From Nitrosomonas communis (lineage in GTDB: Bacteria; Pseudomonadota; Gammaproteobacteria; Burkholderiales; Nitrosomonadaceae), in NCBI RefSeq assembly GCF_900114745.1, contig NZ_FOUB01000001.1, forward strand, positions 124,001 through 188,000: 64,000 bases of DNA, given 5' to 3'. Positions 6,648 through 52,150 of the stretch are shown one piece after another. Position 1 is the stretch's first letter; each line of letters begins with the position of its first letter. The notes below the pieces were generated by a model. It saw nothing but the letters and a program-made list of their open reading frames with translations, was not told the origin of the DNA and did not search any database. Both the position numbers and the translations under genes were made by a program.

Positions 6648-6767
6648 CTTCAATTGGTTTGACGAAACCGTAAAAAAGAAGTGTTTGTGAATTGTAATCA
6701 GCGAAGGGCAAACGATGATCGAATTCATCACCAGGCATTTTTGGCCTATCAACCAGGAGTTAAATCA

Positions 6768-7556
6768 ATGAAAGCAACGATACAGTGGTCTTCTCTGTTT
6801 GTATTTATGATCCTTATGCTTCTGGGAAATTTTGCTCACTCAGCGGAGAATAGTTTGCTCATTCCATTGGGAGAGCAGGATCGTCTTGCGATTGAGAAAT
6901 ATCTGGGAAAGGAAGTTGTCGGGCAAGCTATCCCTGCCTTGGCACTGGTTGATACTAGCCGGTATCTGAATCTGAGCGCTGGCAATCGAAACTACCGACT
7001 CGTGAGTGGGCGGGATACAGGTAACATCGAGCATCATCGACCTGCATTGCTGAAACAGAACGCCAGTAAGACTACCTGGCGATATGATACAGGAGCTAGA
7101 TTCATCTATTATATTCTTGGCAAGGAGGATGGAGATTACGTTGTCACTGGAGTTACCGATAACGAGGAAGGTGTTTTTATACAATACTCGCCTAACAAAC
7201 CTTTTATGCTGCAAGGGCTGACTCCGGGCGAGGAGCGCAATATACAAACCGAAATGAAGGTTTTCGAATTAAGCAACCCAGACAAACAAATTCATACGGG
7301 TATACTGGATATCGGCTACCGCTACGTCGGTGCGTATAAAGTCACAGTACCGGCAGGCAGTTTCGATGCCGTTCTAATTAAATGGACTTTCAATGGAAAA
7401 GTGGGTCCTGCCTCACTTAATGATACTCAGTATAGATTTTTTGCGGCAGATGTTGGTATGGTTGCAGCAATTGAGAAAATGAAGGTTTCAGCTACTCTCC
7501 TCTATAATAAACAGAGGAAAGTTGCGAAAGTGCTGATTGATAAGCCAAAATCCTAA
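6768..7556 (+). CDS. Exported protein of unknown function, tandem paralogue 1
   Basis: 262 residues with a cleavable signal peptide (hydrophobic LFVFMILMLLGNFAHSAE, cleavage after HSA). The mature part is beta-rich and periplasmic. A recurrent block YKVTVPAGSFDAVLIKWTF near residue 200 recalls periplasmic beta-sandwich families such as DUF3108, but I cannot assign it. The start at 6768 has AGGAG upstream; longer starts would bury the signal peptide. It is a tandem paralogue of 7764-8552, about four of five residues identical by eye, and the duplication also includes ~100 bp of upstream DNA. Confidence 0.75.
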   Translation: MKATIQWSSLFVFMILMLLGNFAHSAENSLLIPLGEQDRLAIEKYLGKEVVGQAIPALALVDTSRYLNLSAGNRNYRLVSGRDTGNIEHHRPALLKQNASKTTWRYDTGARFIYYILGKEDGDYVVTGVTDNEEGVFIQYSPNKPFMLQGLTPGEERNIQTEMKVFELSNPDKQIHTGILDIGYRYVGAYKVTVPAGSFDAVLIKWTFNGKVGPASLNDTQYRFFAADVGMVAAIEKMKVSATLLYNKQRKVAKVLIDKPKS

Positions 7557-7573
7557 GAAGGTTATTTTAAGAA

Positions 7574-7657
7574 ATGGATTTCATTCACTTTGCTACTGAC
7601 ATTGCTCATGTTTGTAGTTTTTCTGCACTAGGGTTATTCAGTGTTCATTTAATTTAA
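7574..7657 (+). pseudogene. Duplicated 5' stub of the DUF4239 gene
   Basis: An ATG at 7574 opens a 27-codon frame whose first 24 residues match the start of the 8684 gene almost throughout (MDFIHFATDIAHV here, MDFVHFATDIAHV there, both followed by FSALGLF), then stops at 7655-7657. It marks the right boundary of the duplicated unit: the ancestral order was exported-protein gene then DUF4239 gene, and duplication copied the first gene plus ~70 bp of the second. Not expected to make a functional protein. Confidence 0.8.
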
Positions 7658-7763
7658 AGCAGCTGTGAAAAAAAGGTATGTGTGAATTTTAATCAGCGAA
7701 TGGTAAAGAATGATCGAATTAATCACTAGGGATTTTTTGGCCTTTCAACCAGGAGTTAAACCA

Positions 7764-8552
7764 ATGAAAACAACTATACAGTGGTCTTCTTTGTTTGTAT
7801 TTATGATTCTTACGCTTCTGGGCGATTTCGCTCAATCCGCGGAGGATGACTCACTCATTCCTTTGGAAAAGCAGGATCGTCTTGCAATTGAGAAATATCT
7901 GGGAAAGGGCGTTGTCGGGCAAGCTATTCTCGCACCGACACTTGTTGATACTAGCCGGTATCTGAATCTGAACACTGGTATTCGACACTACCGCCTCGTG
8001 AGCGGGCCGGATACAGGTAACATCGAGCACCATCGACCTACCTTGCTGAAACAGGACTCCAGCAAGAGTGCCTGGCGATATGATACAGGAGCCAGATTCA
8101 TTTTTAATATCCTTGAACAGGCGGATGGCGATTACGTTGTCACGGGTGTTACCGATAATGATGAAGGCGTTTTTACACAATATTCGCCTGCCGAACCTTT
8201 TATACTGCAAGGGCTGGCTCCGGGCGAAGAGCGCAACATGCAAGTTGGAATGAAGATTTTCAAATTGAGTAACCCGGACAAACAAATCCATACAGGAATA
8301 CTGAACATCGGTTATCGCTATGTCGGAGCCTATAAAGTCACAGTACCGGCAGGCAGTTTCGAGGGCGTTCTAATTAAGTGGACTTTCAAAGGAAAAATAG
8401 GCCCTGCATCACTTGATGATACACAGTATAGATTTTTTGCGGCAGATGTCGGCATGATTGCAGCCATTGAGCAGATGGAGGTTTCAGCCATGCTCCTCTA
8501 TAACAAAGAGAGGAAAATTGCGAAAGTGCTGGTTGACAAGCCAAAATCCTGA
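7764..8552 (+). CDS. Exported protein of unknown function, tandem paralogue 2
   Basis: 262 residues, same architecture as the gene at 6768: signal peptide ending near QSAE, then a periplasmic beta-rich domain with the conserved YKVTVPAGSFEGVLIKWTF block. Start chosen at 7764 by the AGGAG at 7751. Differences from paralogue 1 are spread along the length with no stop or frameshift, so both copies appear to be kept by selection rather than decaying. It directly precedes the DUF4239 gene, the likely ancestral arrangement. Function unknown. Confidence 0.75.
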   Translation: MKTTIQWSSLFVFMILTLLGDFAQSAEDDSLIPLEKQDRLAIEKYLGKGVVGQAILAPTLVDTSRYLNLNTGIRHYRLVSGPDTGNIEHHRPTLLKQDSSKSAWRYDTGARFIFNILEQADGDYVVTGVTDNDEGVFTQYSPAEPFILQGLAPGEERNMQVGMKIFKLSNPDKQIHTGILNIGYRYVGAYKVTVPAGSFEGVLIKWTFKGKIGPASLDDTQYRFFAADVGMIAAIEQMEVSAMLLYNKERKIAKVLVDKPKS

Positions 8553-8683
8553 GAGGTTATCTTGTAACCATATGATCCACAACGGTGTATGACGATATGC
8601 TTTGGTTTATAGGTTTTGCCTTATACGACTATATTTACGGGAAATGGGGATTGAAAATTATATTATGTCGGGTACATTAAGAG

Positions 8684-9481
8684 ATGGATTTCGTTCATTT
8701 TGCTACTGACATTGCTCATGTTTCTGGTTTCTCTGCACTAGGGTTATTCATTGGCCTGCTGCTTGTTTTTGGGATTGGTCGATATATAGGTGTTCGATGG
8801 CTTCTGGCAACGGAGAGTGAACATACTTCCGCGGGGCTACTCGACGGTGCCATTTTTGGATTGTTAGGATTACTTATTGCTTTTACCTTTTCCGGAGCCA
8901 TTTCACGGTTTGATTACCGGAAAGAGATGGTAATCACTGAGGCAAATGCCATCGGGACAGCTTATCTCCGCCTTGATCTATTGAGAGTTGAGACGCAGCC
9001 GGCACTGCGCGCTTTGTTCCGGCAATACCTGGATGCCCGCATGGAGATTTATCAGAAATTACCCGATCTGAAGGCCTCGGAAGCAGCTTTGGTTCGCGCG
9101 AATATGCTGCAAGGCGAAATTTGGTCTGCAGCTGTAAAAGCCTGCGAAGCAACAGGTTCTGTGCCAACGACCAATCTGTTGTTAACAGCGTTGAATGAAA
9201 TGTTCGATATCGCTATGCAACGTACTGCTGTGGCGTTAGAGATGCACTCCCCGACAATTATCTACGTGATGCTATTTAGCTTGGCATTGATCAGCGCGGG
9301 ATTGGCTGGCTATACAACAGCAGGCATCGCGAAGCATAGCTTAACTCATATGGTGGTATTCGCCGCAATCGTCGCGATCACGGTCTATGTGATCCTCGAT
9401 ATCGAATACCCTCGCTTAGGACTGATCCGGGTAGATTCGGTGGATCGGGTACTGGTAGACCTAAGAAAAAGTATGGAATAA
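8684..9481 (+). CDS. DUF4239-type membrane protein
   Basis: 265-residue integral membrane protein. Hydrophobic segments are visible at about residues 18-35 and 55-75 (GAIFGLLGLLIAFTFSGAIS) and two near the C-terminus at about 190-215 and 220-240, with a soluble helical middle region. The FTFSGAISRFDYRKEMVITE region is characteristic of DUF4239, described as bestrophin-like; an ion-channel role is suggested for the fold but unproven. It follows the duplicated exported-protein genes, and its own 5' end is copied at 7574. Probably translated with the upstream gene, 131 bp away. Confidence 0.75.
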   Translation: MDFVHFATDIAHVSGFSALGLFIGLLLVFGIGRYIGVRWLLATESEHTSAGLLDGAIFGLLGLLIAFTFSGAISRFDYRKEMVITEANAIGTAYLRLDLLRVETQPALRALFRQYLDARMEIYQKLPDLKASEAALVRANMLQGEIWSAAVKACEATGSVPTTNLLLTALNEMFDIAMQRTAVALEMHSPTIIYVMLFSLALISAGLAGYTTAGIAKHSLTHMVVFAAIVAITVYVILDIEYPRLGLIRVDSVDRVLVDLRKSME

Positions 9482-36427: not shown

Positions 36428-36568
36428 TGATAGCGTAATTAATCTTCCAAGATCTTTTCAAGGAAAACACTGAATATGTTTTAACGTAAATGAGCTACTG
36501 CATTAGGTGGAGTGCTAGAACTCGCTTATTATCAGATATTTTTTTCCTGCGTTCTCTCTGACTTGCTT

Positions 36569-36631
36569 TGACAGTATAAATAATACGGTAAGGTAAAGCC
36601 GATAAAGCCAGTTTTGATTTAGAAATGGAAT
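36569..36631 (+). repeat. Half copy of the dispersed repeat, copy 5
   Basis: Only the right half remains: GACAGTATAAATAATACGG through to GATTTAGAAATGGAAT. The left half and its inverted end are gone. It lies in the 370 bp gap between the secretion operon and the TPR lipoprotein, where nothing else is recognised. Confidence 0.85.
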
Positions 36632-36799
36632 TAGATGACAGCGAATTTTAAATGCATAAATTAATGTGTTGTGTGGGGTATCAAAAATCCATCTATACAT
36701 TGTGATCGTTAGCTATACTGTGAGAACTCTTAAATATGCCGTAGTATAAGAACTGGTTTGGTTTTTTTTAGTCTTAATGATTTTATTGGCTCAATTCAG

Positions 36800-47369: not shown

Positions 47370-47402
47370 CCCCTTATGTTTGAGTAATTCAAACATAAGG
47401 GG
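47370..47402. terminator. Bidirectional terminator between ychF and the DUF2490 gene
   Basis: Perfect 14 bp inverted repeat CCCCTTATGTTTGA / TCAAACATAAGGGG around GTAAT. It is located between two convergent genes, so it can serve both. Confidence 0.75.
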
Positions 47403-47416
47403 AGAGATCTTGCTAA

Positions 47417-48166
47417 CTAGAAAGTCAAAAACAAATTGACCCCCAGAATATGCATCATTTGATCTGGACGGGCATTATGTGGTCTATTGATATATTGATT
47501 CATATAGCCAATTTCCGCGTTAGCCATTTGATTGAATTTCCAACCTAGCCCAACAAAACCCCTGTTCTGATCAAAGCCATTGGTAATCCATCCTTTTTGA
47601 GGCGTATTCATCGCGATAAATATTTCATCCTGTACTATAAAACTAAGATTGGGTGAAATAAATTGCATGGGAAACGCAAATTTTATTAATTGACGAAACC
47701 GGTAGGCTACATCGTTTTTACCAGGATCAGGAACATCATGATCAAAAAAGCGTTGCTCAAAACGGCTGCGCCATTGAAATTTGCCCCAGGAGAATGTATC
47801 TGCATAGATTAATTGTTGCCAGATCCGGTGCTCATCAAAAGGGCCTTGTGCCCCAGAAATCGGTTCGGCCGTTGGTGCCCAGGCATAACCTGCCCAGATA
47901 GACACTTTATCATTAAGGGCATAGCCAATCCCGGGGCGGATAAGGGATTGAGTAAATTGAGAAGAATCATTACCAAAACGCCCTTGGCCTTCGAGCCAGA
48001 GCCTCCAGTTCTTCAGATTTTCATTACCTGTTACATTACCTAAATTTACATTCGCCATAATTTGGCCCCAAGTTTGGAAGTCAGTGACGACATCCTCAGC
48101 TATTGCGGGAGCCGATAGCATACTGAATGCAGCGAATGCCGTAAAAATCTTAAATTTTTTAAACAT
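47417..48166 (-). CDS. DUF2490-type outer-membrane protein
   Basis: 249 residues with a signal peptide (FAAFSMLSAPAIAED). Barrel-like alternating strands with DUF2490 landmarks: DFQTWGQIMANVNLG near 29, LEGQGRFGNDSSQFTQSLIR near 58, WQWRSRFEQRFF-like motif near 130 and VGLGWKFNQMANAEIGYMNQ near 205, ending with an aromatic strand (GVNLFLTF). An outer-membrane barrel of unknown function. Good AAGGGA ribosome site. The upstream 340 bp contain no recognised gene. Confidence 0.8.
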   Translation of the reverse strand: MFKKFKIFTAFAAFSMLSAPAIAEDVVTDFQTWGQIMANVNLGNVTGNENLKNWRLWLEGQGRFGNDSSQFTQSLIRPGIGYALNDKVSIWAGYAWAPTAEPISGAQGPFDEHRIWQQLIYADTFSWGKFQWRSRFEQRFFDHDVPDPGKNDVAYRFRQLIKFAFPMQFISPNLSFIVQDEIFIAMNTPQKGWITNGFDQNRGFVGLGWKFNQMANAEIGYMNQYINRPHNARPDQMMHILGVNLFLTF

Positions 48167-48507
48167 ATTTTTTCCCTTCCTTCGTTGGTAGAAACTTTTT
48201 AATTTTCTTTGTGTTTACAAATTAATTTCACTCAAAAATAAATTACGTTGAGCATTAAAAAATAAATTTAGTAACTTAATTTGATAATTTATATTTGTTC
48301 CTAAACAATATGATGCTACAAAGTAGAGACTTTGAGAGCGAAGCCTACCATAGAAAATGTCAAGAAAGTGTTAAAAAAGCCGCTAGTGATAGAAAAGCCT
48401 TAACAACCATTGGGTATTGTTGCAAGAAAACAACTAAATCAGCAATTTACTTTATAGTACATATAAAATTTGCTTATTATTCAACTAATAAAGGCTGATA
48501 AAGTTAG

Positions 48508-48798
48508 TTAGGTGTTTAGTTCTACGGTAGCCTCAATGCAGGAAGCAGTAAGGAAGTTTTTTGCGTTGCTATCGAAGTGGATGGCAATGTGGCGGAAATT
48601 TTTCATTCTGCCAAACGGGCGTTCGATGATATTTCACTGTTTATAGATGGTCTTGTCATAGCTGTAGTCGAGTCGATTTTCCTGTATCTGCGATATAGAA
48701 TGACAGACGTTGTTCCCCTTTACGCAAGCTATTCTCGTCATGCCTTGCTGTCATATCCTTTGTCGACTAGCAACTTCTTCGACGGCGGTATGGTGATA
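48508..48798 (-). pseudogene. IS5-family transposase relic, C-terminal half
   Basis: On the minus strand, decayed frames give KKLLVDKGYDSKA then a stop, and later YSYDKTIYKQ, stop, NIIERPFGRMKNFRHIAIHF, followed by DSNAKNFL, to a TAA at 48508. These match the DKAYDS...YK-R-N-x-IER-x-F-x-R-(L/M)K-x-(F/Y)R region of IS5-family transposases. It ends exactly where the repeat copy begins (48799). The N-terminal half lies on the other side at 49521-49690. Confidence 0.75.
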
Positions 48799-48853
48799 AT
48801 TCCATTTCTAAATCAAAAATGACGCGAAGGCGAGCCGCAGACAGTATAAATAA

Positions 48854-49470
48854 ATAAGGTAATCCCCTGGCTATGCCGGGGGACTATTAAAGGTTTGACC
48901 GTGTGATACGGTCACCGTGATTCTTTTAGCTTGATCAAGAGCTAGGAGAATCAAATGAGAGATTATCAGAGTTTGACGCATATAACATGGGACTGTAAGT
49001 ACCATATCGTATTTATTCCGAAAAGAAGGAAGAAAGTGATATTCGGAATGATACGAAAACACCTTGGAAAGATATTGCGCGAATTAGCGGAGCAGAAAAA
49101 CTGCCAAATAGTAGAAGGGCACCTGATGCCTGATCATGTACACATGTGCATCAGTATTCCTCCGAAATACTCGGTATCTTACGTAGTAGGATATATTAAA
49201 GGGAAAAGTGCAATATCGATAGCGCGGAAGTTTATGGGGAGATCTAGAAATTTCACAGGTGAAAGTTTTTGGGCACGCGGTTATTTTGTATCCACGGTAG
49301 GGTTAGATGAAGAGATGGTCAGAGAATATATCAGGCATCAAGAGAAGGAGGATGAACACTATGATCAGCTCAAGCTTGGGATGTGATCCCACCTTTAGGT
49401 GGCGCCAATTCTTGCCCCTTTGAGGGGCTAACAAAAATAAGCCTCCGGCTTTGCCGGAGGTAATTTAACT
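48854..49470 (+). mobile_element. IS200/IS605-family insertion sequence
   Basis: About 617 bp with a single tnpA, no terminal inverted repeats but subterminal hairpins: CCCCTGG-CTAT-GCCGGGG near the left end (48863-48882) and CCTCCGGC-TTT-GCCGGAGG at the right end (49442-49460), as used for single-strand recognition. GCCCC-TTT-GAGGGGC follows tnpA (49412-49430). No target duplication, as expected. It inserted into the TATAAATAATACGG centre of the dispersed repeat. It appears complete and possibly active. Confidence 0.85.
48955..49386 (+). CDS. tnpA: IS200/IS605 transposase TnpA (Y1, HUH)
   Basis: 143 residues. HUH single-strand transposase: WDCKYHIVFIPKRRKKVIFG near residue 10, the HUH metal site in GHLMPDHVHMCISIPP near 55-70, and the catalytic Tyr in EEMVREYIRHQEKEDEH near 121-137. 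It cleaves and rejoins single-stranded DNA at the hairpin ends. GGAG upstream of the ATG. The frame is intact. Confidence 0.93.
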   Translation: MRDYQSLTHITWDCKYHIVFIPKRRKKVIFGMIRKHLGKILRELAEQKNCQIVEGHLMPDHVHMCISIPPKYSVSYVVGYIKGKSAISIARKFMGRSRNFTGESFWARGYFVSTVGLDEEMVREYIRHQEKEDEHYDQLKLGM

Positions 49471-49520
49471 AATACGGCAAGGTGAAGCCGACAAAGTCAG
49501 CTTTGATTTAGAAATGGAAT

Positions 49521-49690
49521 AAGATAGGCTTGGGTGGCCTTGTGGTCGCTGACTTGATCGGGGTGAGCATATGACGCAAGGACACCCCTCGCCTTCGGTT
49601 ACGAGGTGGATTCTAGTTGTCCGTTCACCTTTGCTGCGACTAATAGCATGTAAGAAGGCCTCTTTTTCACCGCCGAAGCATCTACCCATC
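49521..49690 (-). pseudogene. IS5-family transposase relic, N-terminal/central part
   Basis: Minus-strand decayed frames read KGERTTRIHLVTEGEGCP and, after a frameshift, DQVSDHKATQAYL, matching the TTKIH...GxxSDxxxA segment of IS5-family transposases. It precedes in order the C-terminal part found at 48508-48798; the repeat plus IS200 lies between. The next ~230 bp (49691-49923) contain no gene I can identify. Confidence 0.6.
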
Positions 49691-49923
49691 TGCCATCATT
49701 TTTAAAAACATGCACGATCCCACTCAAAACTTGCCTCGCCGATTGTTAACAACGCTACGGGTATCCTCCTCGTACTCTGGAGTATTAGCGGCTCTCTCCT
49801 TGACCATTGTCATCCGTAAACCATAATCCCTTCATGATCTAATCCCCCCTCAGAGCATTAGATTATGCTTGCTTCTCGATAATAGGTAGCTTGGAAATTA
49901 TTTGTAATTAAAGAGCCTGGATT

Positions 49924-51463
49924 TTAGAACTTAATGGTTGCCATCGTATATCCATAATTGGTATCTTTGCCTCCTGGACTATTCGGAACTTTATCAAAGT
50001 AATTACCTTTGAATATATGGCTAAACCCTATATCAAAGCTGACACGTTTTAAGAAACTCCACTGAGGATCCCATCCTATGCTGACATCCAGCATATGCCC
50101 TAGGAAACTTCCTGCTCTTCCGGTTGGGTCTTGCAGGCCGGAGCCTACAAAGGCGCCACGCTTATCAGCCAGCCAATACGCACGATGAGACATCATGAGC
50201 CTGACATTGGGAACCGGTGTAAGATTCATACGGAAACCTGCAGGTGAAAAAAAGGTTGGAAGGAAAAAAGGTCCAAACATACCAGTAGGGCCAAATTCTA
50301 CCCGACGTTTTGTAACAGAATGTCAAAATTCTTGTTTGGATCTCGATCACCCGATGCATAATCAAATAGGTAGATAAGCCTGAGAGGCCATGGTGTTTCG
50401 AAGCTGTACCCTACTTCTCCATGATGTCGATGCGCAAAAATATTTTCATCAAAGGTATCCCCAAATTGATACATCGACTCAATTTCATAGTCTATTGAAC
50501 CTCTGGTAGGTTTGGCAAACAACCTGAAACCTGGCGTGGATAAATTACGTTGCCTCAGATTATTACCTTCATTTAATTGAAACCAATAGGCATCAAAATT
50601 AGCCCAGCGTAAATCACGGTTAGTAACGTGTGCACCTGAAAAATAGCTTTCTGGGGTATTCCAATCTAACTCTGACACTTCACGTTGCACAGGTCGTGTG
50701 CCAAATACCTGGAGACCCCATTTCTCCTTGTCGTTCCTTAATGTAAACCGTATCCCATCAAAAGTAGGCGTAAAGCTTCCCACCGGTGTCCACCGACCAG
50801 GCATGATTCCCCATATTCCAGGATTATACGACCGACTTCGAATGTTGCACCATAACCTGTACCAAAAAAATTCTTGGACAATAGATCAAGGCGAAGTTGG
50901 GTAAAATCAAAATGATTAGCAAAAATCGGGTTATGCTCTTGTCCATGCTCTGCTAACGGTGTGCGGAGATCGCTGAGCTCGAGCGTAAATTTTAAAGGAT
51001 CGATAATATTTTTGACTTCGAACAAGAACCTGGTCCGTTGATGAATCTGTTCATTACCATCCGGAATAGCTCTCGTAAAACCATGATCATACACATCATA
51101 GCGTGTCCGATGCTCAATAGCCAAATTGAGCCAATCTGGCGCCATGGCAGCAAGCGGAGTTTTATGGTTTTCCATGAGATCGGTCAGCCTATCAAAATCA
51201 AACCGAGTACTCCCTACCGGTTCTTCTACATCGAATCCATTGGGTGCACTACCATTTTTGAAAATAACTGATGATTTCTTATCTTTCTGTGTTTCTGTAT
51301 TTCGTGCTTGTGCAAGAATAATATTCTTATTGAAAAATAATGAGTTTTTAGCTTCTTTTTCTTCTGCCTTTTGCTCTTCCGCAGCGAAAGAGATGCTTCC
51401 CCCTACGTGAAATCCAATAACCAAACAGATCATCATGCTGGTTATTTTTCTATTCTTTCTCAT
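49924..51463 (-). pseudogene. Alginate-export-type outer-membrane porin, two frameshifts
   Basis: Three minus-strand frames form one ~510-residue protein of the Alginate_exp family. Part 1 (51463-~50795) has a signal peptide and LNLAIEHRTRYDVYDHGFTR, TYGATFEVGRIILEYG-like strands. Part 2 (~50800-50300) has PVGSFTPTFDGIRFTLRNDK and LRLIYLFDYASGDRDPNKNF. Part 3 (~50315-49924) has KRRVEFGPTGMFGPFFLPTF and RVSFDIGFSHIFKGNYFDKV. Frame changes lie near 50785-50800 and near 50305-50320; the second also seems to lack a few residues. Close relatives are outer-membrane channels of uncertain substrate. The start shows a local repeat (ATGATGAGAAAG twice). Confidence 0.8.
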
Positions 51464-52150
51464 CACTTTCTCATCATTGTTTTATAGCCTCCTTTAAGGT
51501 CAAGTATCCAAAAAGTATTTGTAATCTAGATACTTGGGTGATTCTAAGAAAATTGCAATTAACAACTAGTGCATAAAACCTTATGAAATCTGAACAATAA
51601 AAACTCAGCAATATAAATATGGCAAGCGCTTATCTAGAACTATGAATAATAAGCCTGCTCTTGCATGTCTGTATGCTCAGTTTGAAATAGTGTAGCTTTT
51701 GTATTATGAAAACTTTGTAGCTTTATTTAGAATTTATTTATTAATGATGATCTTGTAAATTTATTTAGAATTTGTTTAGATTTGTTTTTTAACCTGTTTT
51801 TTCCTCCTCTAGAAAAATCAAAAAACAATGAATTGCATTGCGGAAGAGAAGAAGACGAATTTGATAAAGTGACAAAAGTGATATAGAACAAGAAGCCTGT
51901 ACATAATGATTGGCTCGCTACCGATGTTTAATTGGATTTTATTATCTTGTCTCATCAACTATTATTTATAAATATAGATCTCGGAAAGCTTGCAATAAAT
52001 CAATGCAATTAAACATTAGTAAGGAAAGGGGAATATGTAATTAAGCCAATAAATCAAGCTGGATATAGTTCTTACTATGGCATTTTTGCCTGCAAAGCCA
52101 GAGCGATAATCAGTTAGCAAAAAAGAATCAATTCATAAGGAGTTGTACTG
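51464..52150. other. AT-rich intergenic region
   Basis: Divergent spacer between the broken porin and the M20 hydrolase gene. It is very AT-rich, with no coding frame, RNA gene or repeat copy recognised. Both promoters should lie here. Confidence 0.5.

Follow-up and report, generated by a model that had tools for sequence, protein, structure and literature searches.

The window analysed here is a 64,000-nucleotide stretch of the Nitrosomonas communis genome (G000:C96:124001-188000; genome of 4.42 Mb in 195 contigs; its YchF shares 84% identity with the YchF of Nitrosomonas marina and of two Nitrosomonas MAGs), in which a DUF2490 gene (47417-48166, minus strand; Pfam, 1.6e-54) and an alginate-export gene (49924-51466, minus strand; Pfam Alginate_exp in three ORFs) enclose a stack of mobile elements. 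Both genes are the same neighbours as in the related genome G018. The alginate-export gene is read in three ORFs of different frames and is possibly a frameshifted pseudogene. Between the two genes lies a decayed IS5-family transposase relic on the minus strand, which is interrupted at 48800-49519 by copy 7 of a 101-bp inverted-repeat element (MITE), this copy in turn being split in its A/T-rich centre by an intact IS200/IS605 element that is included in those coordinates. The three nested layers described in the original prediction are thereby confirmed, with one correction: the relic, placed there at 48508-49690, spans 48508 to approximately 49840.

The flanking relic is recognised as an IS5-type DDE transposase both by profile and by relatives. 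Its C-terminal half (48508-48799, minus strand, including the left TAA copy of the MITE duplication) matches positions 171-255 of the 258 in the NCBIfam model transpos_IS5_3 (E 9.8e-18) and aligns at 70% by blastn with the G018 ortholog. The N-terminal half (49523-49840, minus strand, right limit approximate) contains one piece that matches positions 117-160 of the same profile (E 1.8e-5). Both scores fall below the model’s curated whole-protein cut-off, as expected for fragments, and the profile columns between 160 and 171 correspond to the trimmed query ends of the two pieces. The N-terminal piece alone has no NCBIfam match, its position being taken from reading and from alignment to G018. 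When the two pieces are composed (joint at query 78/79), unbroken relatives match across the joint, among them G017:C17:9345-9740 (36% identity, query 29-163, no stops). Separately, they match residues 134-158 and 180-210 of a 273-aa protein of G018:C42, the gap between the matched parts being 61 nt (20.3 codons) in the window versus 21 residues in that protein. As successive parts of one profile, the two pieces are, on this evidence, a single transposase relic. The proposal of collinear minus-strand halves on either side of copy 7 is borne out by the profile, the composite and the G018 locus. An origin from different IS5 elements joined by rearrangement could draw on the bad decay of both pieces and on the internal part that is missing from the right-hand one (frame reading), but it is given a negligible chance, since the pieces hold successive profile positions and G018 carries the same two pieces adjacent to each other, uninterrupted by any element. 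The relic is like the IS5 family in that both pieces match its model and differs in its decay; neither the window nor G018 showed recognisable ends of the element or a target duplication of its own.

The first step in the order of events is drawn from the related locus. Window positions 47400-51500 were searched against 61 genomes, its own and 60 others from the genus, and 56 matched; among the matches listed, G018 alone combines the IS5 relic with both the DUF2490 and the alginate-export gene. In five further loci (L267-L271; G075, G011, G078 and G064) no IS5 piece was found beside the alginate-export or DUF2490 gene (best E 0.47). The orthologous locus of G018 contains neither the MITE nor the IS200. 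By blastn it aligns with the window at 84.9% (1937 columns) towards the alginate-export gene and at 70.4% (1527 columns) on the other side, the latter alignment ending at 48792 beside the MITE. With one TAA copy counted the joint in G018 is gapless, the left flank being identical at 51 of 60 positions and the right flank agreeing at 15 of 25 at offset 0 versus at most 10 of 25 when shifted anywhere else between -6 and +6. If the ungapped comparison on the right is lengthened to 40 bases, agreement drops to 20, owing to a 10-nt indel about 15 nt beyond the joint. Since G018 holds the relic and has neither the MITE nor the IS200, the IS5 element came first, and the alignment of the two loci shows the relic to be older than the MITE in this lineage. 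The MITE in turn preceded the IS200 because the latter is nested inside it. The predicted order of IS5, repeat and IS200/IS605 thus holds, with its first step taken from the G018 site and its second from the nesting itself. The further claim that the repeat entered a pre-existing gene stands insofar as the relic predates the MITE; the transposase gene, heavily decayed in both the window and G018, may have been intact or already damaged when the MITE arrived.

If G018 had at one time carried the MITE and then shed it through exact excision, the MITE could predate the species split. Cut-and-paste elements of its group can excise, and such a loss is compatible with the sequence, but it is very improbable given that the G018 joint bears no extra TNA copy or footprint and that copy 7 is nearly identical to the consensus. 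Once the IS is taken out, copy 7 agrees with the 69-copy consensus at 99 of 101 positions, the two differences falling one in its left 51 nt (48800-48850, plus strand) and one in its right 50 nt (49470-49519, plus strand). The target duplication to be looked for beside the repeat is present as TAA on both sides (48797-48799 and 49520-49522), the left copy being assigned from the sequence itself, from the G018 empty site, which reads CAA, and from the TNA duplications found throughout the family.

The inner IS200/IS605 element measures 619 bp (48851-49469, plus strand), and both of its ends may shift up to 3 nt rightward, with MITE split points 51-54 fitting equally; its limits are also based on other copies in the genome. 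This ambiguity of 3 nt arises because TAA is shared at the joint, as originally noted, and apart from it the MITE is restored with no extra bases on removal of the IS, in agreement with the clean split that had been described. The tnpA gene (48955-49386, plus strand) encodes a Y1 transposase of 143 aa without stops (Pfam PF01797 Y1_Tnp, 5.8e-40; NCBIfam NF033573 (IS200), 1.3e-43). Of the 620 bases used as query, at least 599 are spanned by each of four further genome copies, and in the copies seen the left flanks end alike, indicating a fixed orientation to the target. A single Y1 TnpA, a hairpin near each end (by eye) and the absence of an insertion duplication are shared with the IS200/IS605 family, from which the element has no noteworthy difference. 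In one further copy (L007, G000:C182:19699-20318) the right flank is TAATACGGCA, identical to the 10 nt directly after the IS in MITE copy 7, and the left flank is not MITE sequence. In addition, shortened derivatives (L011, L012, L013 and L036, in G000:C182, C49, C146 and C97) keep both ends and lack most of tnpA; the match table gives an identical internal joint at several sites, and they are probably a non-autonomous form.

The last two steps would be reversed if a MITE already carrying the IS200/IS605 had entered the IS5 relic whole, as a composite of 720 bp. Intact outer MITE ends with a single pair of TAA copies fit either history; however, none of the 10 other IS200 left ends in the loci examined lies in a MITE centre, and the subset of genome copies examined holds no second composite of MITE and IS200, so that a joint arrival is considered highly unlikely. 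Separate arrivals, first of the MITE and then of the IS200/IS605, are preferred.

The repeat itself is abundant. Its 58-nt core has 162 matches at 3 or fewer mismatches in the genome (80 forward, 82 reverse), with 0 for the reversed control. It is short (64 of the 66 own copies compared measure 101 bp), multicopy and devoid of coding capacity, with terminal inverted repeats TTCCATTTCYAAATCAAAA at both ends and a target site duplication, as are the features of a MITE. The flanks were compared in 66 different own copies, each offering 25 nt of flank together with a core that could be recognised; the set leaves out copies cut by a locus end, lacking the core or interrupted as copy 7 is. In 45 of the 66 the 3-nt flanks are identical (2000 shuffles: mean 29.4, maximum 40), all 45 being TTA or TAA, and in the other 21 they are not; in copies from other genomes the proportion is 15 of 22 (shuffles: mean 7.0, maximum 14), with TGA and TCA included. 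No flank match longer than 3 nt rises above chance in this comparison. Around the three bases, C is favoured before (31/66) and G after (29/66). A 2-bp TA duplication was considered and rejected, as the middle base agrees on both sides above chance and no fixed end suits both TTA and TAA. From these flanks, the duplication left by the MITE is read as 3 bp of the form TNA, mostly TTA or TAA. Elsewhere in the window, positions 36565-36633 hold a MITE copy in which unrelated sequence takes the place of the left part. Further direct repeats, 300 nt (86%) and 84 nt (88%) long and spaced by about 1 kb, lie at 6738-8033 and 7560-8753.

In a set of 61 genomes the MITE is present in 8, all of this genus (8 of the 37 genus members of that set), two MITE-rich genomes giving 417 and 356 first-look candidates, which are not confirmed copies. 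In a larger genus sample, G062, G075 and G077 also match the query within its repeat. Searches of plasmids and phages gave no match and viral contigs no exact 28-nt match, in collections where records near this genome may be absent, and Rfam at gathering cut-offs returned only a tRNA. No published description of this Nitrosomonas repeat was found in the literature searched.

Several candidates for the mobiliser of the MITE were set aside. The common IS5-family elements of the genome end in GGGTCTGTTGACATTT. Unpaired MITE ends in six relatives, read at nine places, proved to be truncated or degenerate copies and chance sites. A TNA-anchored pattern search in G000 and G018 yielded, among the matches listed, degenerate MITEs and chance-like sites; one match (C67) is an IS630-family end. 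The composite L301, in which two MITE ends separated by about 1.1 kb enclose a transposase, appeared as an autonomous partner and is actually a MITE copy split in its A/T-rich centre (L301:1138-2243; G000:C158) by an IS982-family element (8.9e-49) that has ends of its own and, by reading, a TATTTATA duplication of 8 bp.

The likely partner was singled out by its ends from 78 own DDE_Tnp_1 matches. It lies in G000:C144 and is an IS630-family element split by another IS, presumably of the IS1380 family (protein matches DDE_Tnp_1_4, 1.2e-56 and 4e-99). The partner combines HTH_33 (4.8e-11) with DDE_3 (2.7e-8), and its best NCBIfam model is IS630, at 34.6 bits for a partial protein and below the cut-off of 100. 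Relatives were found in 10 of 61 genomes by protein search. A scan of ends that did not require TNA gave 15 distinct copies with two clear ends, taken from 30 protein-search loci plus L342 (L342/L346 and L352/L360 each counted once), doubtful end pairs in L375 (matching) and L374 (not matching) being set aside. Matching 3-nt duplications flank 13 of the 15, all TNA (TTA, TAA and one TCA), L347 and L351 being the two without. A TA dinucleotide reading leaves the agreement of the middle base on the two sides unaccounted for here too. Scored in 11 copies, the ends are like the better MITE end at 16-19 of 22 positions, the background histogram for this similarity having pooled MITEs with other sites. 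Only the ends are shared, the insides of the two elements being unrelated by eye. The distributions of the two across genomes coincide only partly. The two genomes richest in MITE and IS630 are the same, with 22 IS630 matches in G000 and 14 in G018, fragments included; the MITE occurs with no IS630 match in G021, G002 and G029, and IS630 relatives occur with no MITE in G008, G009, G016, G020 and G030.

Movement of the MITE in trans by an IS630-family transposase is, to judge from these shared ends and duplications, most likely. An IS5-family transposase of IS1031 type could have moved it instead, since the genome also has elements with the terminal inverted repeat GAAACTGTTTGGAAA that are flanked by TAA or TGA duplications, and TNA is described as the duplication preference of the IS1031 subgroup of IS5 (PMC12016507). 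This mover is nevertheless unlikely, and these elements were rejected as candidates, for their ends are unlike those of the MITE, whereas IS630-family ends resemble them. With the IS630-family assignment preferred, an abundant and hitherto unnamed Nitrosomonas repeat becomes a MITE with a recognisable likely mobiliser.

What is unusual at this locus is the 3-bp duplication where TA is the stated rule of the group. A TA duplication is given for the whole IS630-Tc1-mariner group and TATA for Sailor (PMC8533490); the likely partner resembles this group in HTH_33 and DDE_3 and differs in its 3-bp TNA. No paper on an IS630 family with a 3-bp TNA duplication was found in a search that most subscription journals lay outside. 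We regard it as somewhat probable that a Nitrosomonas branch of IS630-Tc1-mariner, with MITE copies numbering in the hundreds, duplicates three base pairs of the form TNA and not TA, through a changed target stagger. The 3-bp duplication would thereby offer a small test case for how IS630-Tc1-mariner transposases set the target stagger.

The nested insertion itself is real but ordinary, as bacteria other than this one are known to show such nesting. The nearest described parallel is the pneumococcal repeat unit RUP, paired with IS630-Spn1: RUP is about 107 bp long, is present in about 108 intergenic copies, has terminal inverted repeats like those of the IS630-family element IS630-Spn1, and inserts into several IS families (PMC2229807). 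The MITE is alike in its IS630-like ends and its landing in IS elements. It differs in sequence and host, and its 101 bp with 3-bp TNA contrast with RUP, for which TA is described at the target sites. In Coxiella burnetii, the MITE QMITE2 acts as a landing site for IS1111 (PMC10969869); there, another IS family uses a recognised site, whereas here IS200/IS605 and IS982 elements enter a central A/T stretch.

Taken together, the locus very probably records three successive transpositions, IS5, MITE and IS200/IS605, with the MITE likely mobilised by an IS630-family transposase, and the interpretation in the original prediction is supported. An IS5-family element settled between the DUF2490 and alginate-export genes before the split from G018, its transposase then decaying, as the shared relic shows; this step draws on a linked locus in one genome (G018), with left-side identity of only about 70%. 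Later, in this lineage, the 101-bp MITE entered the relic and duplicated TAA, as the duplication and the empty site show, most likely moved in trans by an IS630-family transposase with similar terminal inverted repeats and the same 3-bp duplication. Lastly, the IS200/IS605 inserted into the A/T-rich MITE centre with no duplication of its own, probably as a single strand, the insertion mechanism of this family. The result is an ordered stack of transpositions whose first step is confirmed by a neighbouring genome.

Such nesting is a habit that copy 7 clearly illustrates, not a one-off. Further nested cases are L301 (IS982 in MITE), L342, where an IS lies inside an IS630-family copy, and L366, an IS630-family copy of 1227 bp versus 1123 bp in L357, with a MITE inside and TTA on both sides of it, the gain of 104 bp being 101 + 3. 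At L343:2549-2680 (G000:C67) an IS630-family end is interrupted by a short inverted-repeat sequence starting ATACTCGGCGCGGTC, which is perhaps a second MITE family.
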